64,000 nucleotides of DNA from Thermoanaerobaculum sp. (GCA_021154885.1 JAJKHS010000042.1:1-64000); one strand, 5' to 3'; shown: positions 9,724 through 26,116, counted from the stretch's first letter. Translations and numbers: made by a program. The notes: generated by a model from the sequence alone, not told the origin.

Positions 9724-12700
9724 TCAACCATCACCATCCGTGGAATCGGCCCCAGCCCTTATTTCCTGCACCAGCCGCCACACCTCCGCAATCGCCGCAT
9801 CCCCATCCGGCGCGCGCTTCGGAAGGCGCTCAAAAAGCTCGCGGAAGTGAACGCCGTCGATTTCCTCCACCCGGCGGGCGACCTCCTCGAACGGCGGGGG
9901 TGAGGGGGGCAGGGAAAAACGGGCGAGGTTTCGAAGCGCATTCCCCAACTGCCCTGAAGAAATCTGGAACCACATCGCACCGGCCACCAAGAGGTGGGCG
10001 AGTATCTCGTCAGGCAACGCCTGGGTCTGCGCCAGATAGTTCGTTAGGTTGTGGTGGCTGATGACACAGCCATGGAGATCCCCGACTTGATAGCTAATCC
10101 GCAGAGCCGATTTTTCGAAAGTCGCCGCTTCCGAGGGATTCCCCTCATCATCCTCCAGGGACGCCATGGCCGTGAAGGCTTTCCCCAGCATTTCAATATC
10201 GTGGTGTTCCTCGAAGACCCTCCGGCACGCCTCAAGCACCTCGCGAGCTTCTTGAAATCTTCGCAGCCGGAGCAAGGGGCCATGGTTGTTGAACGCGGTT
10301 CGCGCCAGCTCAACCTCGTCAGCTCCCCGTTGCTCCGTGATTCGCAGGATCTCGGCACCCAAGCTCAACGCATTCTCCCACCTTTCAAGCCCTATCGCGG
10401 ACTCTAGGCCGGCGTACAGCAGGCCTTCTCGGACGTTCCAGGGATTGACCGTCTCGTCCTCGCCGGGTGCTGGCAGATCTTCAAGCGATGGCAGCAGCCG
10501 CTCCACCTCGGCGAGAACCTCTTCATGCCTGCCCAGGGCGGCGAGCACGTGGAGACGCATCCCCTCATTGAGACGCTGCGACCAGGGCCCCAGGCCGGCC
10601 CCGCGGGTGAGCTCCGCCGCGCGTTCTATCACCTTCAGGGCCTCTTCGAAGCGGCCGGTTTCTAGGAGGAGGTTGGCCAAACGTCCGGCAGCGACAGAGC
10701 CTTGCTTGTGATCTCCCTCTTGCTCGCAAGTTTCCACCAATCTGCGGAGGATTGACTCGGCTTCACCGTCGCGACCCACCATCGACAGTGTCTCGGCCAG
10801 AAGGCTCAGGGCCTGCACGCCTTCCGGAGTCTTTTGGCTCGCTACTGCAATTTCGCGCAGGAAGGGCAGAGCCATGGCGAGGGTGCCAGGAGATTGGTCC
10901 CTATGGATCATATTTTCCAGGAGTCTCCCGGCCTCGTTCCATCGCATCGTCCGCAGTAGGTAAGGTGTACCTCTCTTCCCGGCCTCAACGACCATCCAGC
11001 CACCCCCCCGTATCTCGGTCTTGAGACCCTGCCGGGCCATGGCCCTCCAAAAATCCCCCAAATCCCAATCCACTGCTTCACACAACATCAAACCGCCTTC
11101 CCGGCGGCCTGTCTCGGCGACGGCAGGGTGAATGCGGACCACAGAATCTTCTGTCTCACCTTGTCCTTCTAGAATTGGCAGACGCTGAATCTCCAACAAG
11201 CCTGTAGCTCCGAGTGGCTCCAAGGAGGTGGTGAGACTGTATTCCGGCTCAGTGAGTGCTGCCACGGCTGCCGGTAAAGACTCTCGCAGGCGGTTGAGAA
11301 TAGATGGCCAGGTTACCCTGATGATCGTAGAAACTCGATCTTCCTCCTCCAGCCGGCAAAGCACGTGAAACAGCAGCTTGGCTGCATCCGACAGGTTGGC
11401 GGTGATGCCCACCGTCCAGGCTTCCAGGGTTTTCACGAAGGCAGCCGGACCTTGCTCGGTCTCGCCTTTTGTGAAGAAGCTGCTTCCCCCCAGTTTTTCT
11501 TCCGCGAGCTGCTGGTCGAGCGCGTCGGGACTGCTGCCCTCCAAGCCGTCGGCGAGCTCCAACAGCTTGGGATGACCTTGGGCGGCGGCGAGGATACGCT
11601 TGAGGCGCTCCTTGCCGGCGGTGGAGGCGAAGAGAAGCGAGAGGTTTGGCAACTCGCCGGCGAGGAGGACGCTCTCCGGGAGGCTCAGGGCGTGGATGGG
11701 CTCCAGAAGAAGGGCTGGATGATTCGCGAGGTCTGTGGGAACCACTCGCGAGGTGAGCACGATACGCGAAGCTCCCGTGTGATCGAGAAGGGTTTTGACC
11801 AAATCTCCCCATCGACTGTCGCGCCAGCCGCCGCTATTGGTCAGCAGGCTTTCCAGGTTATCTATCACGATCAGCGCAGCGGGTCCGTTCTGAAGCAGGC
11901 CCTTGAGACGCGGCAGGGCTTTGGAGCGCAGCTCTTGCGGATCGTCGAGCAGGCCCACGAGGGCGAGGCCGGGGAGTTGGCGTTCCAGATCAAGGGCGAA
12001 GTTGGTCAGAGCGTTGGCGATGTCCTGTCCCTGATCCGGAGCCTTGGACCAAGCGAGGCCGGGGAAGCGGCCTTTTTCGTGGCGCCAGGCCAGCTCCAGG
12101 GCGCAGGCGGTCTTGCCGGCTCCGGCCATGCCGTGGAAGAGGATGCCCCGATAATCGCTGTCCGGCGCCAAGGCTTGACTCGCTCGCAGCATCGGCAGGA
12201 GCCGGCCCACGAAGCGCTCCGGCGGCGGCGGAAAGCCTTGCATGCCGGTTTGCGGGGCTTCGAAGATGGGGCTTGTGCGCGGTACCGCGAAGGCGAGATC
12301 AGCCGCCCGGGGTCCGAAGAGGATGGGAGTGACGAGCGAGAGGGGCGGGGCCCAGGGCTCTTCGTCGGGATCGAGCACCTCCTCCAGGGCGGCCTGGAGA
12401 GCCGCCGGCAGCGGCTGGCTTTTTTCGAGCAGCATCTTGTAGAGGCTGAGGACCGCCTCGCGGGCGAAGGTGTCGCCCACGCTGTAGCGCATGGCCAGCA
12501 CGGCGCAGTCCAGGTCCTCGGCCAGGCTCTGACCCAGGCTCGGCAGGGACGAGGGCGCTCCCTCGGTTTTCATTTCCGTCACCGCGGCTTCTCGCGTCGG
12601 CTCGTCGAGGCCGATCTGCTGGCGCGCGACGGCGAGGGTGGCGGCTCCGGAGAGGCAGGAGGAGAGGGTGAGGAGCTTGAGGCGAGGTCTGGCCGGGCGG

Positions 12701-13443
12701 AGGAGCTTGGCGAGATCGTCGGCGTCGATGCGGTCGGCGTCGCCGCGCTCGTCTTCGAGCACGAGCTCGCCGCGGAGGCCGTGGCCGGAGAAGTGGATCA
12801 GGTCCCAGCCGGCGCCTTCGAGCAAGGCGTCCTTGAGGGTCTCCCGGGTGGCGCCGTACTGGAGCACCCGCAGCTCGACGGTGGCGGACCGCGTCTGCGC
12901 CAGGTTCTTGAGAAAGCGCTCCAGATCCACCCGCTCGCGCCTTAGGCTCAGTGGGTTCTGGCCATGGGGGAGGCTGAAGACGGCGAGCACGCGCAGCCGG
13001 TCCGAGGTGAGCTTTCCCCCCTTGGGCTCGGCGGCTCCGGCGAGCTGATAGACGAAGCGCACGCCGGCCTCGGCGAGCGGCTTGCCGTCCAGGTGAGCCA
13101 GCTCGAAGGGCCGCTGGAGCAGGATCTGCGCCTTCTCGGGGACGTGGACCCGCACCACGGTCGCCGGGAAGTCGAGCCGCTCACCGATCTTCGTCAGGAC
13201 CCCGCCGAAGACCTCGCGGCCCATCCACTCGCCGACCGTTTCGAGGCTCTCCTCAGGAGGGGTGTCCGGCGGGCGATTTTTGAGATACCCCGGCAGATCG
13301 AAGAACCCACGGGCCGCGGGAGCGGCGCGATCGAGCCTCACCTCGTGATCGCCCAGAAAGGCGCCGCGATCGTCCTGAAGCTCCCAGCGCCAGCGGGTTT
13401 CGTCGTGGAAGTCGGTGACGTGCAGTTGCAGGCCGGGGGGCAT
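9724..13443 (-). CDS. CHAT protease - STAND NTPase - TPR protein
   Basis: Cytoplasmic 1239-residue protein with no signal peptide or membrane helix. An N-terminal region is followed by a CHAT (caspase-like) domain at about 145-380, with catalytic His221 in HFSGHG and Cys263 in LSSCLSG. A STAND-type NTPase follows, with FVGR at 411-414, the P-loop GMAGAGKT at 438-445 and Walker B ALIVIDN around 524-529. The C-terminal 400 residues are helical TPR-like repeats. STAND proteins with protease effectors are known as pathogen- or phage-sensing switches, so a defence role is an inference. The two copies of the element at 9453 and 13553 bracket it. The C-terminal half is visibly less GC-rich than its neighbours. 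Confidence 0.9.
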   Translation of the reverse strand: MPPGLQLHVTDFHDETRWRWELQDDRGAFLGDHEVRLDRAAPAARGFFDLPGYLKNRPPDTPPEESLETVGEWMGREVFGGVLTKIGERLDFPATVVRVHVPEKAQILLQRPFELAHLDGKPLAEAGVRFVYQLAGAAEPKGGKLTSDRLRVLAVFSLPHGQNPLSLRRERVDLERFLKNLAQTRSATVELRVLQYGATRETLKDALLEGAGWDLIHFSGHGLRGELVLEDERGDADRIDADDLAKLLRPARPRLKLLTLSSCLSGAATLAVARQQIGLDEPTREAAVTEMKTEGAPSSLPSLGQSLAEDLDCAVLAMRYSVGDTFAREAVLSLYKMLLEKSQPLPAALQAALEEVLDPDEEPWAPPLSLVTPILFGPRAADLAFAVPRTSPIFEAPQTGMQGFPPPPERFVGRLLPMLRASQALAPDSDYRGILFHGMAGAGKTACALELAWRHEKGRFPGLAWSKAPDQGQDIANALTNFALDLERQLPGLALVGLLDDPQELRSKALPRLKGLLQNGPAALIVIDNLESLLTNSGGWRDSRWGDLVKTLLDHTGASRIVLTSRVVPTDLANHPALLLEPIHALSLPESVLLAGELPNLSLLFASTAGKERLKRILAAAQGHPKLLELADGLEGSSPDALDQQLAEEKLGGSSFFTKGETEQGPAAFVKTLEAWTVGITANLSDAAKLLFHVLCRLEEEDRVSTIIRVTWPSILNRLRESLPAAVAALTEPEYSLTTSLEPLGATGLLEIQRLPILEGQGETEDSVVRIHPAVAETGRREGGLMLCEAVDWDLGDFWRAMARQGLKTEIRGGGWMVVEAGKRGTPYLLRTMRWNEAGRLLENMIHRDQSPGTLAMALPFLREIAVASQKTPEGVQALSLLAETLSMVGRDGEAESILRRLVETCEQEGDHKQGSVAAGRLANLLLETGRFEEALKVIERAAELTRGAGLGPWSQRLNEGMRLHVLAALGRHEEVLAEVERLLPSLEDLPAPGEDETVNPWNVREGLLYAGLESAIGLERWENALSLGAEILRITEQRGADEVELARTAFNNHGPLLRLRRFQEAREVLEACRRVFEEHHDIEMLGKAFTAMASLEDDEGNPSEAATFEKSALRISYQVGDLHGCVISHHNLTNYLAQTQALPDEILAHLLVAGAMWFQISSGQLGNALRNLARFSLPPSPPPFEEVARRVEEIDGVHFRELFERLPKRAPDGDAAIAEVWRLVQEIRAGADSTDGDG

Positions 13444-13765: not shown

Positions 13766-14632
13766 TTACCGAGCTGTCGAAGCCGCCTGATGCCTCAGAG
13801 CGTAGACGTAGTTGATCGGTGCGTGATCGGCGAGGTCCCGAACCGCCGCGTTGCCCCATTTCCAAGTCTCGTGCAGGATGTATTCCTCGCGTGCCGTCCC
13901 ACGATCCTGGCGAATGACATCCTTCGTGGCGCCCGGCTTGATCTCTCCAAGTTGGTCGATGTAGACGGGCGCCTCCTGGTTCACGTGCACGAAACCGATC
14001 GGCGGCGGCAGACGGGTGACGACGTCGCAGCAATCGACGTACCGTGAAATGTCGAACCCCGACAGGGTGTTGACAAAGCCGGAGTCCCCGACTCGTGGCG
14101 AGCCGAAGGTGACGAGCTTCACGGGCTTCCTCAGGCTCGCCGCGAGAGTGCCCAGGGCCGCACCCAGACTGTGACCGGTGAAGAGCAGACGCCCCGGATG
14201 CGCCTGGAGCCAGGAGTCCAAATCGGACCAGATCAGATCCAAATACTTCTTGAACCCTTCGTGGACTCTGCCCCCGGCTGCCCAGGGCGTCGGCAAGGTG
14301 TTCAAATTGTGCGCCATATCGGTGGGGTCATCCTCCTCTGTGCCCCGAAACGCGACCACGGCGGTTTGTGACCGGGGACTCCAGGCTGCAAAAGCCTGGG
14401 ACCCGCCCTGGTTGAACCAGGCGACCTCGTCGAATCCGACAGACTGGAGGGCGCTCCGCGCCTCTTGCTCCTCGTCCGGGACGCTCTCGAAATGCTTGTA
14501 GACGAGCAGCGAGCATTCCGCGCAGAGCAGGTCGTCCGGGAGGCCTTCCTTGACGGGAAAGAAATCGTGGGTCAGGTGGGGTCGATAAAGGGCGTCGCGA
14601 GTGGGGTCGTAAGGGACTGTGCGGTTCGGCAT
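13766..14632 (-). CDS. Class 3 lipase-like alpha/beta hydrolase
   Basis: A 288-residue protein of the lipase_3 family. The nucleophile elbow is FTGHSLGAAL, preceded by the oxyanion segment VVAFRGTEE and followed by the typical FGSPRVGD strand. The catalytic Asp is probably in CDVVTRLPP and the His in DHAPINYVYAL or nearby. The ORF is open 207 nt further upstream, but that extension is Arg/Gly-rich and unlike protein. The ATG at 14632 has an AAAGGA ribosome site and starts MPNRTVPYDP. No signal peptide is visible. It is the last gene of the sigma/CHAT/subtilase cluster, 59 nt after the 79-residue orphan. Confidence 0.85.
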   Translation of the reverse strand: MPNRTVPYDPTRDALYRPHLTHDFFPVKEGLPDDLLCAECSLLVYKHFESVPDEEQEARSALQSVGFDEVAWFNQGGSQAFAAWSPRSQTAVVAFRGTEEDDPTDMAHNLNTLPTPWAAGGRVHEGFKKYLDLIWSDLDSWLQAHPGRLLFTGHSLGAALGTLAASLRKPVKLVTFGSPRVGDSGFVNTLSGFDISRYVDCCDVVTRLPPPIGFVHVNQEAPVYIDQLGEIKPGATKDVIRQDRGTAREEYILHETWKWGNAAVRDLADHAPINYVYALRHQAASTAR

Positions 14633-14691
14633 CGCCAGATCCTTTCCAGTCTGCCAGGGTTTTTCCCATTGTAACACCACTCCTCGACGCC

Positions 14692-14931
14692 CTAAGCCTC
14701 CTTCACCTGCCGCAGGTGCGGGACCGCGGCGACGGCGGTGGCGTCCCGGCTGTCGACGGCCACTCTCGCCCGCGGCCGCTCGAAGCGATAGCGCTTGCCT
14801 GTCACCGGACCCACGGCTGTCAAACCCGTGGCGCCGCAATACTCGAATTGGACCAGGGGCGCTCCGTTACTCGCGGTCGCGTTCTGATGAGAGGACAGAG
14901 TCGACATCCTCAGTTTTCCGCAACAGCTCAT
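14692..14931 (-). CDS. Small orphan protein, 79 residues
   Basis: Not recognised as a named family. The core has the pattern FEYCGATGLTAVGPVTGKRY followed by an RF-x4-RARVAVDSRDA segment and VPHLRQV. I recall similar small proteins with a TGxxYRF motif and a VDxRDA motif, but of unknown function. It is probably a compact beta-rich domain. The ATG at 14931 has a strong AAGGAGG site 6 nt upstream. Its first 65 bases overlap the end of the DUF1360-like gene, so the two are translationally coupled. The N-terminal 20 residues look unstructured. Confidence 0.65.
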   Translation of the reverse strand: MSCCGKLRMSTLSSHQNATASNGAPLVQFEYCGATGLTAVGPVTGKRYRFERPRARVAVDSRDATAVAAVPHLRQVKEA

Positions 14932-15253
14932 CTGAAACCTCCTTGTCTTCGACGAAAGTGGCTGGAGATGCCGCCAGCCGCGGCGTAATGCGTTCGATCA
15001 GGATCGCCGCGGCCGAGAGAGCGAACCAGAGGAGACAGCGCGTGCTCCAATCCTGCCCGATGAGAAGGGCGACCGGAATCGCGATCCACAGGCTCAGGCA
15101 ATAAAAGCAGTCGAGCAGCGTGCCCCAGAATCCATCTCCCAGGCTCCGCCGGAAACGGACCAGGATGTCGCCGGGGCCGTCTTCCGCCGCGAGCAGGTGC
15201 GTGATGCGCCAGACGCACAGAACGCCCAGCGCGAACTTGAATGGATCCGACAT
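14867..15253 (-). CDS. DUF1360-like membrane protein
   Basis: A 128-residue protein with two or three hydrophobic segments (ALGVLCVWRITHLL; LWIAIPVALLIG; LLWFALSAAAILI) and the segment DCFYCLSLW between them. The WRxTxL start, acidic DGPGD stretch, TLLDCFYC and following membrane helix match my memory of DUF1360, a family of unknown function. The charged C-terminal tail (residues 100-128) is probably cytoplasmic. GGAG precedes the ATG by about 10 nt. It lies 51 nt downstream of the frameshifted orphan gene and overlaps the 79-residue gene, consistent with one operon. Confidence 0.7.
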   Translation of the reverse strand: MSDPFKFALGVLCVWRITHLLAAEDGPGDILVRFRRSLGDGFWGTLLDCFYCLSLWIAIPVALLIGQDWSTRCLLWFALSAAAILIERITPRLAASPATFVEDKEVSDELLRKTEDVDSVLSSERDRE

Positions 15254-15304
15254 CGGCCGAGTCTCCGGGGCGCCCCGGCTGGAGCCGGGACGCCCCGCGA
15301 TCTT

Positions 15305-16385
15305 TCACTTCTTGGGTGCCGCCACGAGACAGAACCCGACGAACTTGCTGTTGTTTTCCCAGCCGCCGACGCAGGATACGATCGTGCGATCGGAGGTGCT
15401 GAGCTGGATCGTGTAGCCGCACGGATCGAGGCGCGTCGGGGCCGCCGTATTGAACGTCCAAGTCCCGGACTGCCCGGTGGTCGGGATCGCGGGATAGGAC
15501 CTGGAGTTGGTCGCCAGACCGTCGATCGTGAAGCGGCCCGAGCCGCCATCCGGAATCGGCTCCGCCGTGAGGGCGAGACTGCTGAAGTGCTCGTCGCTGA
15601 CGCTGTAGCTGCCATGGAGCAGGTCGCCCACCTGGAAGGTGCCGCAGTTGAGGATGTCGGTGAGCACCGGTCCCACGCCGCCGCGCTGATAGCCGGTGAT
15701 CTGGAAGTCCGTGACGTTGGGAACCGCCTGATCGAGATCGACGATGACGTTCTGCCGCGTCGAGCCGTCGGCGACGCACAGCACCGTGCCGGCGACGTAC
15801 GGAGTCAGGGTCACGGGATCCAGGGCTTCGATCCGGATCTCGCAGAGCCCGGTCTTGTCGCCCGAATTCCAGACGGCGAGCAGTCTGGAGGGGGACACCG
15901 TCCGCCAGCCGAAGCCGGGAACCGGCGGGGCCTCCTGGTAGACGTAATAATCGCCGGCTTCCACGTGCTGCGTGACGTTCGTGCTCGTCGGCAGCCCGCC
16001 GCCGATCTGCTCGTCGAGCGTGAGGCCAAAGTCATTGTTCAGGAATTGCGGTGAGCCGCCCGGCCACTGCTGCACGGAGATCCGGTAGCGCGGCTGGCGG
16101 CCGGCGTCAGCACGTTCGGCGCTCCGGGTATATGACCGAAGATCGCCACCGCGCCGCCGAAGGGCCGCTCTCCCGACGCGAAACCGGTCGTCTGATCGAT
16201 GTTGCAGACGGCGATCCCGCAGAGGTTCTGGATGTAGTGCGTGTAGTCGCCCGTGATCGCCGAAGCTCCGGGATAGACGTGAACGCGTGTCTCCAGCCGA
16301 TTGCCCCATGGTTGGGGTTTTGCAGGATCAGGGCTCTGAACTGGGTCCGCTCGAGCTCTAGCTTCGATGGTTTCACGGTTGGCAT
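15305..16385 (-). pseudogene. Orphan protein interrupted by two frameshifts
   Basis: One gene read in three frames. The ATG at 16385 has an AAGGAG site 7 nt upstream and begins MPTVKPSKLELERTQFRALI. Around 16300 the sensible frame changes and continues ETRVHVYPGASAITGDYTHY and on to GHIPGAPNVLTPAAS. Around 16100 it changes again to PRYRISVQQWPGG and stays open to the stop at 15305. The joined product would be about 360 residues, with many beta-strand-like segments and no signal peptide. The FRAL-x3-NPN start resembles other uncharacterised bacterial proteins I recall. Either two assembly errors or a recent pseudogene would explain it; preserved coding character in every segment favours errors or very recent loss. 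Confidence 0.7.
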
Positions 16386-16439
16386 ACGCTTACTCCTTAT
16401 GACAGGTTTTCTGCTATGCGGCGGTGCTCGCCCATGAAA

Positions 16440-16470
16440 GGGCTTCGCCGGCGGCTGTGGTTTTCTGACA
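16440..16470 (-). promoter_or_regulatory. ECF-type promoter candidate upstream of the orphan gene
   Basis: On the minus strand TGTCAGAAAA (16470-16461), then a 13-nt spacer, then CGAAGCCC (from 16447). It is one of four sites in this cluster with the same spacing. The predicted transcript start near 16433 leaves a leader of about 48 nt before the ATG at 16385. That is close to the leader predicted for the subtilase gene. Confidence 0.55.
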
Positions 16471-16501
16471 ATGAAGATGAGATTCGACGGCTGGCGGAAC
16501 G

Positions 16502-16540
16502 AAAAAGAGCGCCGGCTGGCGGAATCCGCGGACCGGCGCT
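16502..16540 (-). terminator. Intrinsic terminator between two promoter-like sites
   Basis: On the minus strand AGCGCCGG (16540-16533) pairs with CCGGCGCT (16515-16508) and an inner GCGGA/TCCGC stem. CTTTTT follows directly. It lies downstream of the promoter-like site at 16645-16614 and upstream of the one at 16470-16440, so it would end a transcript of only about 105 nt. Confidence 0.65.
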
Positions 16541-16608
16541 TGAGTGGGAGGCCGAGACGCTGACCGGGGAAAGCACCTCAGGTATCGTCCCCCGGTTCGT
16601 CTCTCTTA
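16502..16608 (-). ncRNA. Candidate small RNA from the ECF-type promoter
   Basis: The interval between the promoter-like site at 16645-16614 and the terminator at 16540-16502 would give an RNA of about 105 nt. No convincing short ORF with a ribosome site is present; the first ATG is followed at once by TAA. The call rests only on the promoter pattern plus the terminator. Confidence 0.35.
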
Positions 16609-16613
16609 CATTG

Positions 16614-16645
16614 AGGCTTTCGCTGCCGAGCGCCGGTTTCTGACA
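16614..16645 (-). promoter_or_regulatory. ECF-type promoter candidate, intergenic
   Basis: On the minus strand TGTCAGAAAC (16645-16636), 13-nt spacer, CGAAAGCCT (16622-16614). The two boxes match those upstream of the subtilase gene exactly through CGAAAGCCT, while the spacers differ. This separates it from chance similarity of the surroundings. Confidence 0.6.
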
Positions 16646-16691
16646 AGACTGACAAGACGAACGTTGCCGGCGCTCCGCGAACCGACGAAGA

Positions 16692-16723
16692 GCGCCGGCC
16701 GGTGAGCGTTCACCGGCCGGCGC
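16692..16723 (-). terminator. Hairpin after the subtilase gene
   Basis: A perfect 14-bp stem (GCGCCGGCCGGTGA at 16692-16705 with its complement at 16710-16723) around a 4-nt loop, 15 bases after the subtilase stop. The tail on the minus strand is CTTCGTCGG and not a clear T-run, so it may be a Rho-type or weak terminator. The rest of the 352-bp gap 16386-16737 holds two more GAGCGCCGG-type hairpins and the promoter-like sites listed here. Confidence 0.6.
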
Positions 16724-16737
16724 GAAGACGGGGATGG

Positions 16738-18867
16738 TCAGTCAGGCTGGGGATCGACGTACACCGGGTTCTGCACGGAGTAGGTAGTTCCTCCCACCGT
16801 CACCTCGAAGTTGAGAGTGGCCGTGCACCCCACCAGCGAGTCGCCGTTGCCGACCTCCTTCACACCCAGGAGGTGGGTGCTGTTCGCGGCGTTCATCAGG
16901 TCGTCCTTGGGAATTGCGTAGGTCATTCTTTCGACGAAGCTGTCGCCGGAGTAGCGATCGACGTCCAGGGTGACGCTGTCGATGCTGATTCCTGGCGCTT
17001 GCCACTCCGGATCGATCACAACGGCGAGGACGTAGCCCTGCGGTGTTGCCGGCGTTGCTCCGAAGTGCAGAGAGGTTGCTGGCGGGGGAACGAACGTGCA
17101 GTTCGGGCAGGGATTCACTTCCGGCTGGGGAGCGACCCAGCGCTGGCTCACCATGTCGGGCAAGAGGTACAAGGGGCAAGCGTCGGAGACGCCCCCTTGG
17201 ATGGCAAAGAATTTGGGAGCCGGATCGGACGCTGACCCGCAAGCCGTCGGCAAGGTGGTCGTCTCGAGCGCAGGCAGAGGAGAGATTTGAGGGTTGCCGG
17301 AGACGAGGACCGACAAATCTGCAGCTTTGTTGGGTTCCCAGGGCTGACAGCTCGGGATCGCACATCCCCCCCCGCCTGCGCATGCCTGTTGGACCGCCCG
17401 GCAGAGCGACAGCCGCCTCAGATGGGGAGCCTTCACCAGGTGGGAGAGAGGCCACAGGTTCTTCCAGGCGTAGTAGTCCGCGCGGACGGGCAGGCCGTCG
17501 CCCGACTGGCTGATCAGATTCATCACTTCGGCCGGCGGGAGCTCCGGCCGCAGGTACCAGGCCACGGCGGCAATGGAGGAGACGACGGCTGCGGAGACCG
17601 AAGTGCCGGTGTACATGGCCGTGGGTTCGTCCGAGCTGCCGGTAGGCGTCGTAATCGCGTGATCCCCGAAGGCGACGCGCTGCGGCAGCCCTCCTTGACG
17701 ATAGTTGGGCAGCGGCAGGCCCTGCCAATCCACCCCGCCCACGGCGTAGACCGGCTTCGGGCCGAGAGCGAACGGCAGGCACGAGGGGGGGCGCAGCTCC
17801 CACCCCGCGGGCAGCAGGGGCCCTTTGGATTCCTCGCCGCCCCGGCGATTGCCCGCGGCGGCGATCACCAGCGCCCCGCTGCGGCGGGCGTATTGGAGGG
17901 CGTAGTAGACGAGCTGTGTATCCGGCTTGAGCTTCGAGACCTTTTTGATGTCGAGCTCATGGAGCTTCTTGCCCTGCCTGTCGACCGAGAGCTCGTCCCA
18001 GCCGACCGAGAGGTTGAGGACCAGGTGCTGCTTCGAGCCCGACTGCCGCCAGGTCCAGACCTCCCGCGTGATCGCCGCAGCGAGATCTTCCACCAGGCCG
18101 AGGTGGCCTCCCTGGCTGTTGGTGTTGGCTCCCGGGAGCGGAAGGTCCCGGTTCGAGTAGCGCAGAGCGAGCCGGGTCGCAAACTCGCTCGGACAGGGGT
18201 AAACAGTTTTGCATGCCAGTTCCTGAGCCTGGTGCACGAGCGAGTAGCCGTGCTTGGAGGGGGCGGAAGAGTGCGGTACGCCCTCATGGTCCGGCTCCGT
18301 ATCGATGAAGACCAGGCGGACCGGCGGCTTACCGGGGGGAAGGGAGAAATTCGGAGGCATTCCAGAGGTCTGGTCCAGGAAATGCTGGGCAAGGATCGAC
18401 ACCGGGTCGCCGGCCGGAACCAGGGCCATCCGGCTCCCGGCGGGCTTCTCCAATCCGGCGGGCGGCGGGCTCGGGAAACTCGGGGCCGAGCCGGAGTGCT
18501 TCCTGTAGGTGCAGAACCGATCGAGCTCTTTCAGCAGGGGCTCGGTGGCCATCGCTCGGCGCAGCTTGATCTCCAACTGCTTGTCACGGTACGGGTCAGG
18601 CTGTTCGTTGGGTGGGCGCAGCGTCTGCACCAGCCAAGTGTCGGCAGTGTCCCAGCCGGCAACCTGCGGGCAGCGGTCGACACCCTTTTTCCGGGTGGCG
18701 ACCACCTGCCAGTCCACCTCGGCGCTCTCCAGGACGTACTTCTCCTTACGATCTTGCTTCTTCTGAGCTTTGAATCCGTTCTTTTCCAACTGCGGGGCGG
18801 CGTGGCTGGAGGTGGTCCATCCCAGCACGGCCAAGACTAAGGAACAGAGGATCATAGGGGATCGCAT
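16738..18867 (-). CDS. Secreted S8 (subtilisin-like) serine peptidase
   Basis: Exported peptidase of 709 residues with signal peptide MRSPMILCSLVLAVLGWTTSSHA. The subtilase triad is readable: Asp189 in VFIDTEP, His206 in SKHGYSLV and Ser423 in YTGTSVSAA, with the oxyanion Asn340 in AAAGN. The catalytic domain covers about 180-465. The C-terminal 240 residues are Cys- and Pro-rich and end in a beta-sandwich-like segment (SIDSVTLDVDRYSGDSF...), perhaps for binding. An AGGAGG site precedes the ATG. The separate promoter-like site at 18952-18920 suggests its own transcript within the sigma regulon. Confidence 0.9.
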   Translation of the reverse strand: MRSPMILCSLVLAVLGWTTSSHAAPQLEKNGFKAQKKQDRKEKYVLESAEVDWQVVATRKKGVDRCPQVAGWDTADTWLVQTLRPPNEQPDPYRDKQLEIKLRRAMATEPLLKELDRFCTYRKHSGSAPSFPSPPPAGLEKPAGSRMALVPAGDPVSILAQHFLDQTSGMPPNFSLPPGKPPVRLVFIDTEPDHEGVPHSSAPSKHGYSLVHQAQELACKTVYPCPSEFATRLALRYSNRDLPLPGANTNSQGGHLGLVEDLAAAITREVWTWRQSGSKQHLVLNLSVGWDELSVDRQGKKLHELDIKKVSKLKPDTQLVYYALQYARRSGALVIAAAGNRRGGEESKGPLLPAGWELRPPSCLPFALGPKPVYAVGGVDWQGLPLPNYRQGGLPQRVAFGDHAITTPTGSSDEPTAMYTGTSVSAAVVSSIAAVAWYLRPELPPAEVMNLISQSGDGLPVRADYYAWKNLWPLSHLVKAPHLRRLSLCRAVQQACAGGGGCAIPSCQPWEPNKAADLSVLVSGNPQISPLPALETTTLPTACGSASDPAPKFFAIQGGVSDACPLYLLPDMVSQRWVAPQPEVNPCPNCTFVPPPATSLHFGATPATPQGYVLAVVIDPEWQAPGISIDSVTLDVDRYSGDSFVERMTYAIPKDDLMNAANSTHLLGVKEVGNGDSLVGCTATLNFEVTVGGTTYSVQNPVYVDPQPD

Positions 18868-18919
18868 AAGTCTTTCCTCCTGGGTGCGGCAGATTCCATC
18901 AACTGCCGCTATTCCGAGT

Positions 18920-18952
18920 TAGGCTTTCGCACCCGGAGAGATGTTTCTGACA
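18920..18952 (-). promoter_or_regulatory. ECF-type promoter candidate for the subtilase gene
   Basis: On the minus strand TGTCAGAAAC (18952-18943), 13-nt spacer, CGAAAGCCTA (18929-18920). It sits in the short gap between the CHAT gene stop and the subtilase ATG. The expected leader is about 48 nt. Of the four sites this one and 16645-16614 agree best. Confidence 0.6.
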
Positions 18953-18966
18953 AGGGGTGGCGAAGG

Positions 18967-21693
18967 TCAGGGCTCGAGCAGGCGGAAGCTCATGCAGTCG
19001 GCTTTCGGATCTCTGTGGCGGCAGGTGAGCTCGGCGCGCTGGAGCTGGAGCGCCAGGTCCGTTTCCTCCCCGGGACGCCAGCCGCGGTACAGATCGAGCA
19101 GGAGGTCCCGGGCGACCTTGTCGTCGACCTGCCGGGTGGCGGCAATCACTGCTCGGGAGCCGGCGAGGAGGAAGGCGTTGGCGAGGCCGATTCCCTCGGC
19201 AGGAGCTTCCTCCGAAGAGCGGCTGGTGTCGCAGGCGGAGAGCACGACCCACCGCGGCACCCGGCGAAGCATCAGGATGTCGCCCGGTATGAGCCGTGAG
19301 CCGTTCGCCAGCGGAAGGGCGCTGTCCCAGCCGGCGAAGCTCGCGTCATAGTTTCCGTGACCGGCATAGTGGAAGAGGTCGGCCTGCGGCAGCGCTTGGG
19401 TCAGAGCCGCAGAGCTGGCCGCCGGGCCGTCGAGCTGTTTCAGGGTCCAGCCGCGGCCCCAGTTGCCGATCGCGGCACTGACGGCCTGCGCCTCCTCCTG
19501 CGCCGCTGGCAGGTACCCCAGGTCACTCTGCGGATTGGAGACGAGGAGGGCCGCGGACCGTGACGACGGGGGGGACTTCGGGGGACGCGGCAGGTCGAGG
19601 CCGTAGATCACGGGGTGCCGGGCGAGCAACAGCTCCCCGTCCAGAGGCAGGGCGTGAAAGTCCACGGACCGCAAGACGCCATAGGGCAGCACCCGGATCC
19701 TCCCGGCGCGGGCAATGGCTTTGCGAAACGGCGCCAGTATCAGGGCGGAGAGCGCCTCGTTCCCGGGCAGAGGGGACGGCATCTCGAAGCGGCTGACCTC
19801 GATGGGGCGCCCGTGCGCGGCGGCGAAACCTACCCAGCCTTCCGGCAACGGGTGATAGGCCAGAATGACCTCGTCCCGCCCTGGGGGGGAGAGGCTGCTC
19901 TCCCACAGGGACTCAAGGCCCTTGACGCGGGTGATCGCGCGGTCGAGGTCCTTGCGGGCCTCGGCGAGCTCCTGAGCCCTGCTCTTGCGGGCGCGTTGCC
20001 TCTCGTCTTTGGGGAGCTTTGCGTCCTCGGCCTCTTGGCGGCGCCGTTCCCAATAGCGCGACAGCGCATCATCCCACTCCTTCTGCTCCTCTGGCGTGAG
20101 CCGGCGGTCGCGGATCGCGAGCTGGCGCAGCAGCCGGGACCGGGCTTGCCGCGTCAGAGCGAAGGCGCGTCGCCACTGCCTGCTCTCCAGGAGCAGCTCG
20201 AGGTACAGCCGGGTGGCCCCCTCCCGCTGGGCAACCACGGTGTCGCGCCCCTCGTCCACCGGAGCGTGCCGGCTCTGCTCGTCGATGAGACGGTCCGCCT
20301 TGGCCAGCGCGGCGAGCGCCTCGCGCCGCTGGCCCAGCTTTAGCCTTGCGCGAGCCCGGCCGAACGCGGCGCGGAAGCGTCCTTCGAGCGACAGGGAGCT
20401 CTCGGCGATCCCTGCCAACTCGTCGTAGAGTCGCAGCGCACGCTTCGGCTCCCCTTTAGTGATCGCCTCCCGCGCCTCGAGATCGAGCGCCCAGAGGCGC
20501 TGCCGCAGGGTCGCCTGGGAGAGGAGCGGCCGGGCCTGCTCCAGCGCGTTGCGGAATTCGCGCTCTCGGCCGGCCTGCAGATGGGCGAGCGCCAGGTTGA
20601 GGAGGCCGTTGAGCCGTTCGGGTTGGCAGCCATTTTTCTGGTTTTCGAAGATGGCCTGCGCTGTCGTCAGCTCCGGCGTTGGATCGCTCGCGCTCTCGCC
20701 CGCTTCGTGCCGCAGCAGCCGCGCCCAGGCCTCGTTGGCCAACAGCACTCCTTGATCGCAGGGCTTTTTTTCGGGAAGGCTTTTGAGCAGCCTAGCAAAG
20801 AGCTTCTCGGCGTACTGCGAGCGGCCGAGGTCCTGATAAAGGCGGGCGAGGACCTGCTCGGCGTCCCACTGGTAATCTGAGTTGCCGATGCGCTCGGCGA
20901 GATTTGCCGCCTTTTGTAGCTGCTCCAAGGCTGAGCGGTAGTCACCGACCTGGCCTGCGAGCAGGCCCTGATTGTAGGCCACAAGGCATTTTGCCCCTCC
21001 CGGGGCCTCGACGGGGAGCTTCAGCGCGAGGAGCTGTCGCGCATCGCTGAAGAGGCCCTGGTCCAGGTAGCGCTTGGCCAGCAACGTGGCTTTATCCACC
21101 TCGCAGCTCACGCAGTGCTCGGCGCGATCTGCTGCCATCCCTTGCTCGAAGTAGGCCACGGCCTTGGCGTCCTGCCCCGCGATCAGGGCGAGCTGGCGCA
21201 GGATGAGACCCTTCTGCCTGGGGGAGGCCGTGCTCAGGAGCTTCTCCAGCCGCAGCCGGGCCGCATCCGTCTGGCCCTTGGACTGGAGCTCTTTGACCTC
21301 ATCGAACCACTGCGGGACCTCCGGACGAGCCACGGAGAGGGACCACGCAGGCCCGCACGCGCCCTCCGGCTGGCACAGCCGGACCGTGAGCGGTGCGGCT
21401 CGCTGCGGAAACCTGAGAAGGAAGCGGCGGCCCTCGGCGATCCCCTGGCCTCTGGCGTCGACGATCCGGCTCCCGAACCGGATTTCCACTTTGAAGTCGG
21501 GTACGGCTTTCACCCAGAGTCTGAGCTTGCGATCGGGCCTGAGCGGGCAGACCGGCCCCGGAACGTAGACCGCCCAACAGCCGCTGTACTCAACCTCCGG
21601 AGCCGGGGGTGCGGGGGCGGTCGCTCTGGAGCGGGCACCGCAGGCGAGCAGGATGCCGGCGAGCCCCAGGAGAAAACCGTGACGCCCTGTCAT
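18967..21693 (-). CDS. TPR-CHAT lipoprotein (caspase-like peptidase)
   Basis: A 908-residue protein with a lipoprotein-type leader (GLAGILLACG; lipobox Cys near 18). An Ig-like N-terminal part (about 30-130) leads into a long TPR region (about 130-560). A coiled charged segment follows, then a C-terminal CHAT domain with catalytic His near 779 in HYAGHGNYD and Cys near 821 in VVLSACDTS. With a signal peptide the peptidase would act outside the cytoplasm. Its ATG overlaps the stop of the anti-sigma-like gene by 4 bases, so the two are coupled. Sigma, anti-sigma and CHAT in this order suggest that sensing is tied to proteolysis; that link is an inference. Confidence 0.9.
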   Translation of the reverse strand: MTGRHGFLLGLAGILLACGARSRATAPAPPAPEVEYSGCWAVYVPGPVCPLRPDRKLRLWVKAVPDFKVEIRFGSRIVDARGQGIAEGRRFLLRFPQRAAPLTVRLCQPEGACGPAWSLSVARPEVPQWFDEVKELQSKGQTDAARLRLEKLLSTASPRQKGLILRQLALIAGQDAKAVAYFEQGMAADRAEHCVSCEVDKATLLAKRYLDQGLFSDARQLLALKLPVEAPGGAKCLVAYNQGLLAGQVGDYRSALEQLQKAANLAERIGNSDYQWDAEQVLARLYQDLGRSQYAEKLFARLLKSLPEKKPCDQGVLLANEAWARLLRHEAGESASDPTPELTTAQAIFENQKNGCQPERLNGLLNLALAHLQAGREREFRNALEQARPLLSQATLRQRLWALDLEAREAITKGEPKRALRLYDELAGIAESSLSLEGRFRAAFGRARARLKLGQRREALAALAKADRLIDEQSRHAPVDEGRDTVVAQREGATRLYLELLLESRQWRRAFALTRQARSRLLRQLAIRDRRLTPEEQKEWDDALSRYWERRRQEAEDAKLPKDERQRARKSRAQELAEARKDLDRAITRVKGLESLWESSLSPPGRDEVILAYHPLPEGWVGFAAAHGRPIEVSRFEMPSPLPGNEALSALILAPFRKAIARAGRIRVLPYGVLRSVDFHALPLDGELLLARHPVIYGLDLPRPPKSPPSSRSAALLVSNPQSDLGYLPAAQEEAQAVSAAIGNWGRGWTLKQLDGPAASSAALTQALPQADLFHYAGHGNYDASFAGWDSALPLANGSRLIPGDILMLRRVPRWVVLSACDTSRSSEEAPAEGIGLANAFLLAGSRAVIAATRQVDDKVARDLLLDLYRGWRPGEETDLALQLQRAELTCRHRDPKADCMSFRLLEP

Positions 21694-22517
21694 GGCGAGG
21701 CGCGGGGTTTGACCCTCAAATCTTTGAAGACCGCCTGCCAGTCGGCGTCCCGGAACCGACCGGCTTGCAACTCGGCTTGAAGCTCCTGGACAGACGGGAT
21801 TCTGCCTTTCCGGCCGACGACGATCCAGATCCTCCAGTCTCCTGCGGGAAGCTGGATCTCCTTGCCCAGCGTGCCCTCCAGAGACACGGTCCCCTTGGGG
21901 TCGACGCGGGGCTCCGACGTCCAGGGAAGGAGATCCCTTTTACCCGAGAGAGAGCTGAGAAAGGCGCGTGCCTCTACACCTTGGACGGCCGTGTCCGGAG
22001 TTGCCGTGAGCGTTAATGGCGAGCCGGGGCTGAGCTTCGGCAACCCGCTCTGCTGACTGGGCTCGCTTCCCCGGTTGGTCTGGTCGCCCTTCAGATCGGC
22101 CATTTCGTAATTGGGTATCCGCGGTTGCTCCGGCCCCCGCACCAGGAAGAACACCCCCGCCGCCACCGCTGCCGCAAAGCCCACCCAGACCTCGGCTCTG
22201 TGGATCATCCGCCGAAAGGGGAGGACGCGAGGGCGCGGCTCCTGCGGCTTGGGGCTCGGCGCTTCGGTGGTCCGCTCGGCGTTGATCGCGTTCACCACCC
22301 GGGCCTGGAAATCAGCGCCCAGCGGCCGGAAGGCCTCGTAGGCTTCCCGAGCCTCGGGGGAGGACTCGCCGAGGGCCTTCAGCTCCGCGTCCTCCTCGGC
22401 GGTCAGCGTTCCGGCGGCCAGACGGTCCCAGCGGTCGTCGAGGCTTGCCCGCTCGGCGTCGTGCTGCTGCCGCGCCAGATCTCCCAGCTCACTCAAGAGT
22501 CGATCATCCATATTCAT
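21690..22517 (-). CDS. Anti-sigma-factor-like single-pass membrane protein
   Basis: A 275-residue protein with a cytoplasmic N-terminal part of about 110 residues, rich in acidic and Leu positions (WDRLAAGTLTAEEDAELKAL is typical of anti-sigma N-termini). One membrane helix follows near 112-128 (WVGFAAAVAAGVFFLV), then an extracytoplasmic beta-rich domain to the end (WRIWIVVGRKG...). No zinc-binding HxxxCxxC is visible. The second ATG at 22511 has a better-placed G-rich site than the ATG at 22517. It lies directly after the sigma gene, the usual arrangement for sigma/anti-sigma pairs. Confidence 0.75.
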   Translation of the reverse strand: MNMDDRLLSELGDLARQQHDAERASLDDRWDRLAAGTLTAEEDAELKALGESSPEAREAYEAFRPLGADFQARVVNAINAERTTEAPSPKPQEPRPRVLPFRRMIHRAEVWVGFAAAVAAGVFFLVRGPEQPRIPNYEMADLKGDQTNRGSEPSQQSGLPKLSPGSPLTLTATPDTAVQGVEARAFLSSLSGKRDLLPWTSEPRVDPKGTVSLEGTLGKEIQLPAGDWRIWIVVGRKGRIPSVQELQAELQAGRFRDADWQAVFKDLRVKPRASP

Positions 22518-22523
22518 CCCCCG

Positions 22524-23162
22524 CTATGTCTTTCGTGCCGAGGCCCCGGTTCCTGACATTTCGGCCAGGAGCTTCTGGGCCAGGCGGCGCAGGCGGCTGC
22601 GCCAGGCGTAGACGGCGTCGGCGGAGAGGCCGCTCGCCGTCTGGACCTCCGTCTGCGACAGCTCCTGGACGAAGAGGAGCTGGAACAGCCGGCAGCCCAG
22701 CGGGCTCAGCTCCTCCCGTAGCCGGTCGAGCAGGCGGGACAGGTGCTCGCGGCTGGCGGTGACCTCTTCCGGATCGCTCTCAGGGGTCGCGGTCGTGAGC
22801 TCGTCCTCGGTGAAGGAGGGGTCCTCCTTCCAGGGGTTCCGCCGGCCGCTGCGCAGGAACGACAACACCTGGCGTTCCGCCACCAGCCCGACGAAGTTCT
22901 CCAGCGAGAGGCCCCGCTCGGCTTGCCAGGAGCGCAGGACGTGGGCGTCCCGGTTGAAGAGCGCGAGGAAGACCTCCTGGCTCTGGTCCTCGACCTCCTG
23001 GCGCAGGTCGCGTCCGCCGGCGAGGAGCGACCGGCGGGCCAGCAGGGTGCGGGCCACGCGGGCCTGGATCACCGGCGTCAGCGCGGCCACCAGCCGGGCG
23101 AGACCGGTCTGCTCACCAGCCAGGGCTCGCTGGACCAGACCCGCAGTGTCCTCAGGATTCAT
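22524..23162 (-). CDS. ECF-like RNA polymerase sigma factor
   Basis: A 212-residue sigma-70-family protein with sigma2- and sigma4-like halves. Region 2 lies around LRQEVEDQSQEVFLALF and the following Trp/Phe-rich helix (SLENFVGLVAERQVLSFLR). Region 4 has a helix-turn-helix reading LSQTEVQTASGLSADAVYAW. Region 3 is absent, as in ECF factors. It is the first gene of the minus-strand cluster, with the anti-sigma-like gene 6 nt after its stop. It probably reads the TGTCAGRAAM-N13-CGAAAGMC sites listed here. Confidence 0.85.
   Translation of the reverse strand: MNPEDTAGLVQRALAGEQTGLARLVAALTPVIQARVARTLLARRSLLAGGRDLRQEVEDQSQEVFLALFNRDAHVLRSWQAERGLSLENFVGLVAERQVLSFLRSGRRNPWKEDPSFTEDELTTATPESDPEEVTASREHLSRLLDRLREELSPLGCRLFQLLFVQELSQTEVQTASGLSADAVYAWRSRLRRLAQKLLAEMSGTGASARKT
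22526..22558 (-). promoter_or_regulatory. ECF-type promoter candidate before the anti-sigma gene
   Basis: On the minus strand TGTCAGGAAC (22558-22549), 13-nt spacer, CGAAAGACAT (22535-22526). It includes the GGAAC box typical of ECF promoters. It overlaps the last codons of the sigma gene and would give a nearly leaderless transcript, so it is the weakest of the four by position although it fits by sequence. Confidence 0.4.
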
Positions 23163-23266: not shown

Positions 23267-26116
23267 ATGCCCCGCTTGGCGAGCTCCCGCGAGGTGATCC
23301 CGCTCTATGAGGTGCTCTTTGCGGAGTACGAGAGCCAGAAGATCGAGCCGCCGCTCCCGGAAGGCTACCTGGCAGGCCTGCGCGCCCGGTACGAGGCGGA
23401 CGTCGCCGCCATCGCCGATCCCGAAGAGCGGGCCGCGCGCGCCGCGCGGATGAGCTCCGAGCTGCTCAAGGAGTTCTACCGCTGGGTGCACCGTAACCAG
23501 GTCGGGCGCTCGGCACTCTGCTTTTCCGGCGGCGGCATCCGCAGCGCCACGTTCGGGCTCGGGATCGTGCAGGGCCTCGCGCGCCGCAAGCTGCTCGGCG
23601 CCTTCGACTTCCTCTCCACGGTCTCGGGTGGCGGCTATCTCGGGAGTTGGCTGTCAGCCTGGATCCATCGCGCGGGGCTCGCCAGCGTGGAGGAGGAGCT
23701 CCGCCGGCGGCCCGAGCAGCCGTTGAGCCCGGAGCCGGAGCCGGTCCGGCATCTGCGCAACTACAGCCGCTACATGAGCCCCAAGGCGGGGCTTCTCTCG
23801 GCGGACACCTGGACCCTGGTGGGGATCTTCCTGCGCAACCTGCTCCTCAACTGGCTGGTGCTGCTGCCGATGATGGCTGCCGTGCTGACGTTCCCTCGCT
23901 TCAGCACGGCGGCCGTCCTCGAGGTGAACGCCCTGCCGTCCCATCTTCAGGAGCGGGTGAGCAACTGGGTGCTGGGAGTGGCGGTGGTGCTGGGCTGGCT
24001 GGTGATCGCCTATATCATCGCCAACCGCCCCAGCCTGACCGACACCCAGCCGCCGCGGAGCCGTTTCCCGCTCCGGTTCAGGAGCCAGGGATGGTTCCTG
24101 GTCCTGTGCCTGCTGCCGCTCTGGATCCTGGCCGTCGCCGTCACGGCCTACTGGGCCTGGACCACCCTGTTGTTCACGATCTTCGGTTACGAGATCCCGG
24201 TCTGGCTGGCCTTCGTCCTGTTCGGCGCCATCCTTGGCTTCGGCGGCTTCCTCGTGTCGCGGATCTGGGTGCGCGAGCCGGCGCCGCTCGAGGGGCTGCT
24301 GGTCATCGCCACCGGCGCCCTGGGAGGCCTGTTCTGCCGGCTCGTGGCGTCGGATCTCTATCCCGTCCTCACCGTCATGCCGGCGACGGAGCTCTACATC
24401 TGCATCGGCGCTCCCCTGTTCCTGAGCATGTTCCTGCTGGCGGCCACGATCTTCATCGGGCTGTCGAGCTACTTCACGAGCGACGCGGACCGGGAGTGGT
24501 GGGCGCGCTTCGGCTCCTGGGTCCTCATCCTCATCGTCGCGCGGAGCGTCCTGAGCCTCCTGGTGCTCTTCGGGCCCGTGGCGCTGGTCGAGTACGGGCC
24601 CGCCTGGCTGACGTCCCTGGGCGGCCTCTCGGGCCTCGTCACCCTGCTGCTGGGCGGCAGCGCGAAGACCGCCGTGACCCGGAAGCCGGGGGAGGAGGAG
24701 AGCAAGGGCTCCGTCGTGTCGAGGCTCGCGCTGAGCCTCGCGGCACCGCTCTTCGCCCTGTTCATCATCGTGCTGCTGTCGCTGGGCACCAGCCTGCTCC
24801 TGAGGCTGTGGCCGGCTGACCGGTGTCTCTTCGATCCCAAGGCTCATTCCCACTTCTGGTGTATCCAGCAGCCGCTGGGCAGCGGCATTCACAACCTTGT
24901 CCAAGTGATCCACCATTCGCCCTCGTGGCTGTTGCTCCTGGTCACGGCCGGCCTTCTCGCCGTCAGCACGGCGATGGGCTACTGCGTCAACATCAACCGT
25001 TTCTCTCTTCACGCCGCGTATCGCGACCGGTTGATCCGCGCCTATCTCGGGGCCTCCCGCCGCAAAGCCGAGAGGAAGCCGAACCCGTTCACCGGCTTCG
25101 ACGAGAAGGACAACCTGCAGATGCGCGAGCTGCGGGGCAACCGGCCCTTTCCCGTGCTCAACCTGACGCTCAACCTGGTGGGGGGCAAGGACCTGGCCTG
25201 GCAGGACCGCAAGGCCGAGCCGTTCACGGTGACCCCGCTGCACGCCGGGAACTGGTGCCTGGGATACCGGGACGCGGCCCGCTACGCCGCCAGCAGACGC
25301 CTCAAGCGGGCCATCACGCTCGGCACCGCCGCCGCCATCTCGGGCGCCGCGGCGAGTCCCAACATGGGCTATCACTCGTCGCCGGTGGTGACTTTTTTGC
25401 TCGCCCTTTTCAACATCCGGCTGGGCTGGTGGCTCGGCAATCCAGGACCTCACGGCGACTCGACGTTCGATACTCCCGGGCCCCGGTTCGCGCCGGAGCC
25501 GCTGATCGCCGAGGCCTTCGGCCTGACCGACGACACGAGCCCCTACGTCTATCTCTCCGACGGCGGCCACTTCGAGAATCTCGGGCTCTATGAGATGGTG
25601 CTGCGGCGCTGCCGTTACGTCGTGGTTAGCGATGCCGGAGCAGACTCGGACTTCTCCTTCGAGGACCTGGGAAACGCGATCGGTAAGATTCGTATCGACC
25701 TCGGGGTGCCGATCCGCTTCGAGAAGATCGCCATGCGCCCGCGGGCCGTGGGCGAGGCCTTCGACCTGGGAGAGCTCCCCTCGCCGCCGCTGCCCTACTA
25801 CGCCGTCGGCAGGATCGGCTACTCGTGTGTCGACTATCTCGATACGCCGGGCGATCTGGGACCCGAGGCGGACGGCTTCCTGATCTACATCAAGGCCTCG
25901 CTCAACGGCACCGAGCCGGTCGACGTCTTCCACTACGCGAAGGCGCACCCGGCCTTTCCCCATGAGTCGACGGCCAACCAGCTCTACAGCGAGTCGCAGT
26001 TCGAAAGCTACCGCGAGCTCGGCGCCAACGCCATCAACAGCCTGATGCCGAGCGCACCGGTTGCGCCCACGCTCGCCCAGCTCTTCGCGGACCTGAAAGT
26101 GCCGGACCCGTTCTGA
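23267..26116 (+). CDS. Multi-pass membrane patatin-like phospholipase
   Basis: A 949-residue protein in which a patatin hydrolase is split by a membrane domain. The oxyanion loop SGGGIRSATFGLG and the nucleophile segment STVSGGGYLGSW occur at about 86-130. About 8-10 hydrophobic helices follow between about 185 and 585. The catalytic Asp lies in LSDGGHFENLG (about residue 765), followed by VSDAGADSDF. The Ser-Asp dyad is complete. It probably cleaves membrane lipids at the inner membrane. GGGAGGAGGG precedes the ATG. It is divergent from the sigma gene, so co-regulation with the cluster is possible but not shown. Confidence 0.88.
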   Translation: MPRLASSREVIPLYEVLFAEYESQKIEPPLPEGYLAGLRARYEADVAAIADPEERAARAARMSSELLKEFYRWVHRNQVGRSALCFSGGGIRSATFGLGIVQGLARRKLLGAFDFLSTVSGGGYLGSWLSAWIHRAGLASVEEELRRRPEQPLSPEPEPVRHLRNYSRYMSPKAGLLSADTWTLVGIFLRNLLLNWLVLLPMMAAVLTFPRFSTAAVLEVNALPSHLQERVSNWVLGVAVVLGWLVIAYIIANRPSLTDTQPPRSRFPLRFRSQGWFLVLCLLPLWILAVAVTAYWAWTTLLFTIFGYEIPVWLAFVLFGAILGFGGFLVSRIWVREPAPLEGLLVIATGALGGLFCRLVASDLYPVLTVMPATELYICIGAPLFLSMFLLAATIFIGLSSYFTSDADREWWARFGSWVLILIVARSVLSLLVLFGPVALVEYGPAWLTSLGGLSGLVTLLLGGSAKTAVTRKPGEEESKGSVVSRLALSLAAPLFALFIIVLLSLGTSLLLRLWPADRCLFDPKAHSHFWCIQQPLGSGIHNLVQVIHHSPSWLLLLVTAGLLAVSTAMGYCVNINRFSLHAAYRDRLIRAYLGASRRKAERKPNPFTGFDEKDNLQMRELRGNRPFPVLNLTLNLVGGKDLAWQDRKAEPFTVTPLHAGNWCLGYRDAARYAASRRLKRAITLGTAAAISGAAASPNMGYHSSPVVTFLLALFNIRLGWWLGNPGPHGDSTFDTPGPRFAPEPLIAEAFGLTDDTSPYVYLSDGGHFENLGLYEMVLRRCRYVVVSDAGADSDFSFEDLGNAIGKIRIDLGVPIRFEKIAMRPRAVGEAFDLGELPSPPLPYYAVGRIGYSCVDYLDTPGDLGPEADGFLIYIKASLNGTEPVDVFHYAKAHPAFPHESTANQLYSESQFESYRELGANAINSLMPSAPVAPTLAQLFADLKVPDPF

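Follow-up and report, generated by a model that had tools for sequence, protein, structure and literature searches.

The window analysed here, the whole of a 64,000-nucleotide stretch of DNA from Thermoanaerobaculum sp. (GCA_021154885.1 JAJKHS010000042.1:1-64000), carries at positions 13766-23162 a block of minus-strand genes headed by a sigma factor of the extracytoplasmic function (ECF) type. All of the genes named in an initial annotation of this block were found, and its description of them as sharing one strand with short gaps or overlaps was borne out. The conserved part of the block begins with the sigma factor itself (22524-23162, 212 amino acids), followed by a transmembrane anti-sigma-like protein (21690-22517, 275 amino acids), a CHAT lipoprotein with tetratricopeptide repeats (TPR) (18967-21693, 908 amino acids), and an exported subtilase (16738-18867, 709 amino acids; PF00082, E=9e-10). 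The sigma factor has regions 2 and 4 of the sigma70 family, as judged from its match to TIGR02937 (E=3e-10; 40.0 bits over residues 44-197, just below the cut-off of 42.9) and from a profile match to the solved ECF sigma factor 9isn in the PDB (E=8e-6). The anti-sigma-like protein is recognized by its hydropathy, its AlphaFold2 model, and its kept position after the sigma factor, and the CHAT protein by PF12770 and TPR matches. Further downstream lie an orphan coding region, a DUF1360-like membrane protein, a 79-amino-acid open reading frame, and a class 3 lipase. The first four genes constitute a real conserved regulatory module with lineage-specific cargo, and together they probably make up an alarm circuit, facing the surface, by which its own promoters and a set of species-specific, mostly exported proteins are turned on.

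Among the 149 genomes of the class that were sampled, the sigma factor (E<=1e-12) and the subtilase (E<=1e-20) were each found in 11, and these are the identical 11 genomes, in which the sigma homologues are mostly 47-65% identical. Comparison of the loci by gene calling and six-frame profile searches revealed the order sigma, anti-sigma, CHAT, subtilase at every intact Acidobacteriota sigma locus, with the four-gene set divided across contig ends in G024 and G027 (contigs C114 and C13). A sigma profile searched against 396 genomes of the phylum gave matches confined to the window's own order. Further copies of the module were found in the genomes behind more distant matches, whose records bear the names proteobacterium, Myxococcales, and unassigned bacterium. 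One of these genomes, G498, holds two loci with the same four-gene order, while at several loci of G501 the sigma factor and the CHAT protein, and mostly the anti-sigma and subtilase as well, have stayed linked despite changed order or strand, although at L172, L174, L175, and L177 the subtilase or anti-sigma matches are weak or come from gene calls only, and the anti-sigma is missing at L177. The retention of linkage under rearrangement argues for a joint function. The anti-sigma-like protein, when used as the search anchor across genome contigs, recovered no relatives, probably because it diverges fast. In both copies of the module in G030 (L070 and L071), the anti-sigma and CHAT proteins are fused into a single protein of 1159 or 1195 amino acids, which has no PDB sequence match and bears a transmembrane segment near its N terminus, an arrangement that, provided the helical domain lies in the cytoplasm, would put CHAT on the outer face of the inner membrane.

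The initial annotation had proposed that the seven or eight genes make up a single system, and this is not supported, as the downstream genes are not common to other loci: no counterpart of the orphan, the DUF1360-like gene, the 79-amino-acid gene, or the lipase occurs at any other module locus. The outcome that it had named as counting against its proposal, with the genes scattered in related genomes and only sigma, anti-sigma, and CHAT kept together, comes close to what was found; the one difference is that the subtilase, too, is a core gene. Homologues of the C-terminal part of the orphan are present in 2 of the other 148 genomes, away from the module locus, and lipase homologues are scattered over eight other genomes, one of which bears the module on a different contig; no promoter motif of the kind described below was found beside the lipase or orphan homologues in these relatives. 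Since the circuit is kept while the genes downstream of it lack counterparts, those genes look like replaceable cargo.

Three side observations concern the make-up of the module elsewhere. G501 (11.4 Mb) contains about seven paralogous, rearranged versions (L090, L168, L170, L172, L174, L175, and L177), which are natural material for mix-and-match tests of specificity. On contig C58 of G039 (L064, 8835-13729), there is a CHAT-subtilase pair with no sigma, anti-sigma, or motif found nearby. In a Myxococcales record (L087, 3480-4942), a related sigma factor stands with a transmembrane anti-sigma-like protein, without CHAT or subtilase beside them.

The shared promoter pattern that had been suggested for the block is real and strong; it is repeated through the block and recurs in relatives, which supports the suggestion that the genes are co-regulated. 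The motif, TGTCAGAAA-N14-CGAA, that is, TGTCAG(A/G)(A/C)A-N14-CGAA, has four sites in the 64 kb of the window, all inside the block on the minus strand: predicted promoter P1 within the 3' end of the sigma gene and upstream of the anti-sigma-CHAT unit (22528-22559, 26.9 bits), P2 upstream of the subtilase (18922-18953, 31.6 bits), and P3a and P3b, both upstream of the orphan (16615-16646, 37.6 bits, and 16440-16471, 34.3 bits). The next best score of the position matrix in the window is 8.2 bits; as the matrix was partly built from sites that it later scored, these values characterize the motif without testing it independently. Better support comes from pattern counts, both the genome-wide ones given below and the three occurrences of TGTCAGAAN{8,24}CGAA in the window against 0.04 expected, but this pattern was first seen in the window, and its recurrence elsewhere weighs most. 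The motif appears with equal spacing before the subtilase in L025, L062, L065, and L069 and before the anti-sigma in L063 and L091; at L072, a version one base shorter precedes the sigma gene and a divergent subtilase. Weaker versions are found at the anti-sigma junction in L055, L056, and L059 and at the subtilase junction in L057 and L070. Across the 8.2-Mb genome of the window (G000), the strict motif has seven sites, four of them in the block, and the backward control none; no strict site occurs in two genus mates that lack the module. All three strict sites in G003 fall within its cluster, before two subtilases and a transthyretin-like protein. This distribution points to autoregulation by the sigma factor of the module, as predicted from sequence.

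The three G000 sites outside the block precede genes for a vWA-domain protein, an FG-GAP protein, and a poly-gamma-glutamate-hydrolase-like protein. The last of these (L128, contig C144, 2088-8834) is predicted to be exported, and its gene is followed by TIR-AAA_35 and AAA_35-WD40 genes; a link between the regulon and STAND/TIR effectors is possible from this site. No cas genes were among the Pfam-scanned genes behind the seven strict G000 sites, and weaker sites were not scanned genome-wide.

The predicted architecture of the proteins is consistent with a circuit at the cell envelope. The anti-sigma-like protein consists of N-terminal helices, one transmembrane helix (residues 107-126), and a C-terminal immunoglobulin-like beta-sandwich (137-269) in an AlphaFold2 model with a mean predicted local distance difference test (pLDDT) score of 82, made from an alignment of 13 sequences. 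The layout is that of the known membrane anti-sigma factor DdvA, with a helical N terminus, a single transmembrane helix, and a C terminus that AlphaFold2 and hydropathy suggest to be extracytoplasmic. Its best match to an anti-sigma hidden Markov model is weak (E=0.037), and a structure search returned generic beta-sandwiches for the C-terminal domain only, so the structural matches are uninformative on the helical domain. The CHAT lipoprotein (mean pLDDT 86.7) has the lipobox LLAC, a beta domain (34-122), TPRs (128-597), and a CHAT domain (605-908) that matches PF12770 with 107 bits against a threshold of 24 (E=1.6e-30), and on inspection, a lipobox is also carried by many of the non-fused CHAT proteins. 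Its His/Cys dyad is present, with H779 and C821 invariant in both alignments and H775 kept in 17 of the 17 sequences of the first (A3). In the subtilase, D189, H206, N340, and S423 are invariant in 14 sequences, and D189, H206, and S423 make up the Asp-His-Ser triad.

Foldseek placed DdvA (8rot, 8rw5) first among the structural matches of the CHAT model and Csx29 of Craspase next, whereas VIA-align gave Z scores of 30.5 for Csx29, 26.1 for DdvA, and about 26 for separase; over residues 320-991 of DdvA, 638 residues align with a root-mean-square deviation of 6.0 and 16% identity. As the TPR-CHAT arrangement is common to several families, the fold match alone is no proof of descent. DdvA, the membrane anti-sigma factor of Myxococcus xanthus that partners the ECF sigma factor DdvS, joins a transmembrane anti-sigma to a TPR-CHAT domain in one chain, and its fold resembles that of the CHAT protein here. 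DdvS reportedly controls mainly a type III-B CRISPR-Cas operon. In the window and at most other loci, by contrast, the two parts are separate polypeptides, fused only in the G030 copies, the CHAT protein has a lipobox of its own, and a subtilase is the fixed fourth partner. The Craspase system of type III-E (Csx29, Csx30, and CASP-sigma) also combines a TPR-CHAT protease, a sigma inhibitor, and an ECF sigma factor, and Csx29 cleaves the inhibitor Csx30 (PMC10028731), whereas the parts encoded here are predicted to be membrane-bound or exported and include a subtilase; no RNA-guided effector or Cas7-11 (gRAMP) was found among the scanned window genes, and the genome as a whole was not searched with cas models. 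CalpL, CalpT, and CalpS likewise form a three-part switch of protease, anti-sigma, and ECF sigma factor, in which CalpL cleaves CalpT (PMC11417357), but CalpL is a Lon-type, intracellular protease of another fold that is gated by cyclic tetra-adenylate (cA4).

The statement in the initial annotation that no known system has this composition was too strong in view of DdvA, as a transmembrane CHAT anti-sigma factor, and of the ECF54 sigma factors, for which a conserved context of subtilase, CHAT, and carboxypeptidase-domain proteins has been reported, with no anti-sigma (PMC8999054). Compared by this reported context, ECF54 resembles the module in having CHAT and subtilase genes next to the sigma gene, but the anti-sigma-like transmembrane protein, a putative binder of sigma, is encoded as well at every intact sigma locus of the Acidobacteriota. 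Because the single chain of DdvA and the missing anti-sigma of ECF54 both find no match here, we place the module near both groups and within neither. No paper describing the four-gene set was found in the literature searched.

Taken together, the computed linkage, the anti-sigma-CHAT fusion, the retained catalytic residues, the predicted export, and the promoter motif lead us to favor, at a probability of roughly 60%, a protease-gated envelope ECF sigma circuit, similar to DdvS/DdvA but split over two genes and equipped with a dedicated subtilase. The single-pass membrane anti-sigma would hold the sigma factor, with its C-terminal beta-sandwich facing the periplasm, and the TPR-CHAT lipoprotein on the same side as the beta-sandwich would sense a ligand by means of its TPR and beta domains. 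Following this trigger, CHAT may cleave the anti-sigma or alter its conformation, alone or with the subtilase, as DdvA or Csx29/Csx30 probably do, and the subtilase could be the cascade's second protease or else its first output; the cleavage target and the protease responsible are, like the purpose of the cargo, inferred. The released sigma factor would then transcribe from the motif promoters the anti-sigma-CHAT unit, the subtilase, and lineage-specific, mostly exported proteins, represented here by the unit from the orphan to the lipase and by the vWA, FG-GAP, and poly-gamma-glutamate-hydrolase-like genes elsewhere in the genome. The logic recalls RseA, DegS, and RpoE, in which the periplasmic part of a single-pass anti-sigma factor is cleaved on envelope signals; the likeness extends to logic only, as CHAT and a subtilase would take the place of the PDZ-trypsin protease. 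Several observations weigh against the circuit as drawn. Three genomes that bear the module, G024, G030, and G089, contain no strict motif and only weaker variants of it; database searches gave no match of the anti-sigma's helical N terminus that would prove sigma binding; the CHAT protein of the window, as a separate lipoprotein, could sort to the inner or the outer membrane; and the protease activity of CHAT and subtilase is a prediction from retained residues.

The same data might be read with the proteases as outputs, an ordinary ECF/anti-sigma envelope-stress pair driving CHAT and subtilase for quality control or attack while the signal reaches the anti-sigma otherwise, for example as a ligand on the beta-sandwich. 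We consider this possible but rather unlikely. With the motif in front of the subtilase as well as of the anti-sigma-CHAT unit, both proteases are predicted members of the regulon, as this reading would have it, but positive feedback would also put them there. Further subtilases stand behind the motif in G003 and G028, and the CHAT-subtilase pair without a nearby sigma factor in G039 and the sigma-anti-sigma pair without CHAT at L087 likewise speak for this reading. What turns us toward CHAT as a component of the switch is the fusion of anti-sigma and CHAT in both G030 copies, together with DdvA, itself an anti-sigma factor with CHAT. It is also improbable that CHAT, subtilase, and lipase attack their own cell when triggered, as in the self-destruct role suggested by the initial annotation or in an antiphage abortive system: export and an outward position are predicted for the catalytic parts, the lipase does not travel with the module, PADLOC matches are weak only (BovA, E=1.4e-4; subtilase, 0.008), and the maintenance of multiple copies at stable loci speaks against a suicide device, even though CHAT proteases are known in phage-defense signaling (PMC10028731, PMC11417357) and one regulon site of G000 lies upstream of a gene that is followed by TIR-AAA_35 and AAA_35-WD40 genes. 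That the linkage merely reflects descent from one ancestral operon, with no function in common, would fit the identical gene order within one order of bacteria, but several G501 loci are rearranged in order or strand with their genes still adjacent, and the junctions that carry promoter sites are the same from locus to locus, which makes this explanation very improbable indeed.

If the protease-gated circuit is correct, coupling of caspase-like CHAT proteases to ECF sigma and anti-sigma factors would be a theme wider than CRISPR, and the module would offer a way of learning how Craspase and DdvA signaling arose and what periplasmic CHAT domains sense. The split, subtilase-containing form with its clear promoters makes the regulon predictable and testable in a reporter strain. 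A bolder version, which we put forward tentatively and regard as doubtful, would see in the module a CRISPR-free, outward-facing relative of the Craspase-sigma branch, possibly ancestral to the DdvA and Csx29/Csx30 switches, in which a two-protease cascade at the surface, with CHAT either switching on the subtilase or working alongside it, frees the ECF sigma factor to fire a lineage-specific exported arsenal against competitors, predators, or phage.

The cargo of the window, all of it on the minus strand, begins with the orphan coding region (15305-16385). The initial annotation had called the orphan frameshifted, and a change of frame is indeed present, but the frame favored by the coding score changes at two places, near 16310 and near 16100, which rules out a single frameshift event and leaves either a broken gene or an assembly error. 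The DUF1360-like small membrane protein (14867-15253) matches PF07098 marginally (E=7.6e-4; 19.9 bits against a gathering cut-off of 21), the 79-amino-acid open reading frame (14692-14931) has no family match, and the 288-amino-acid lipase (13766-14632; PF01764, Lipase_3, E=1.5e-19) most likely starts at 14632. These three genes have no motif site of their own, and they could thus belong to the regulon only by read-through from the orphan promoter. Adjoining the sigma gene, divergently from it, is a gene for a 949-amino-acid patatin-like membrane protein (23267-26116, plus strand), to which nothing corresponds at the other module loci. The gene immediately downstream of the lipase (9724-13443, minus strand), outside the conserved module and with no motif found in front of it, encodes a 1239-amino-acid protein of CHAT, AAA/NB-ARC-like, and TPR regions. 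The genome of the window is unusually rich in matches to the CHAT protein of the module, with 19 of them (L001-L019) that, the module copy aside, run mostly through the CHAT region.

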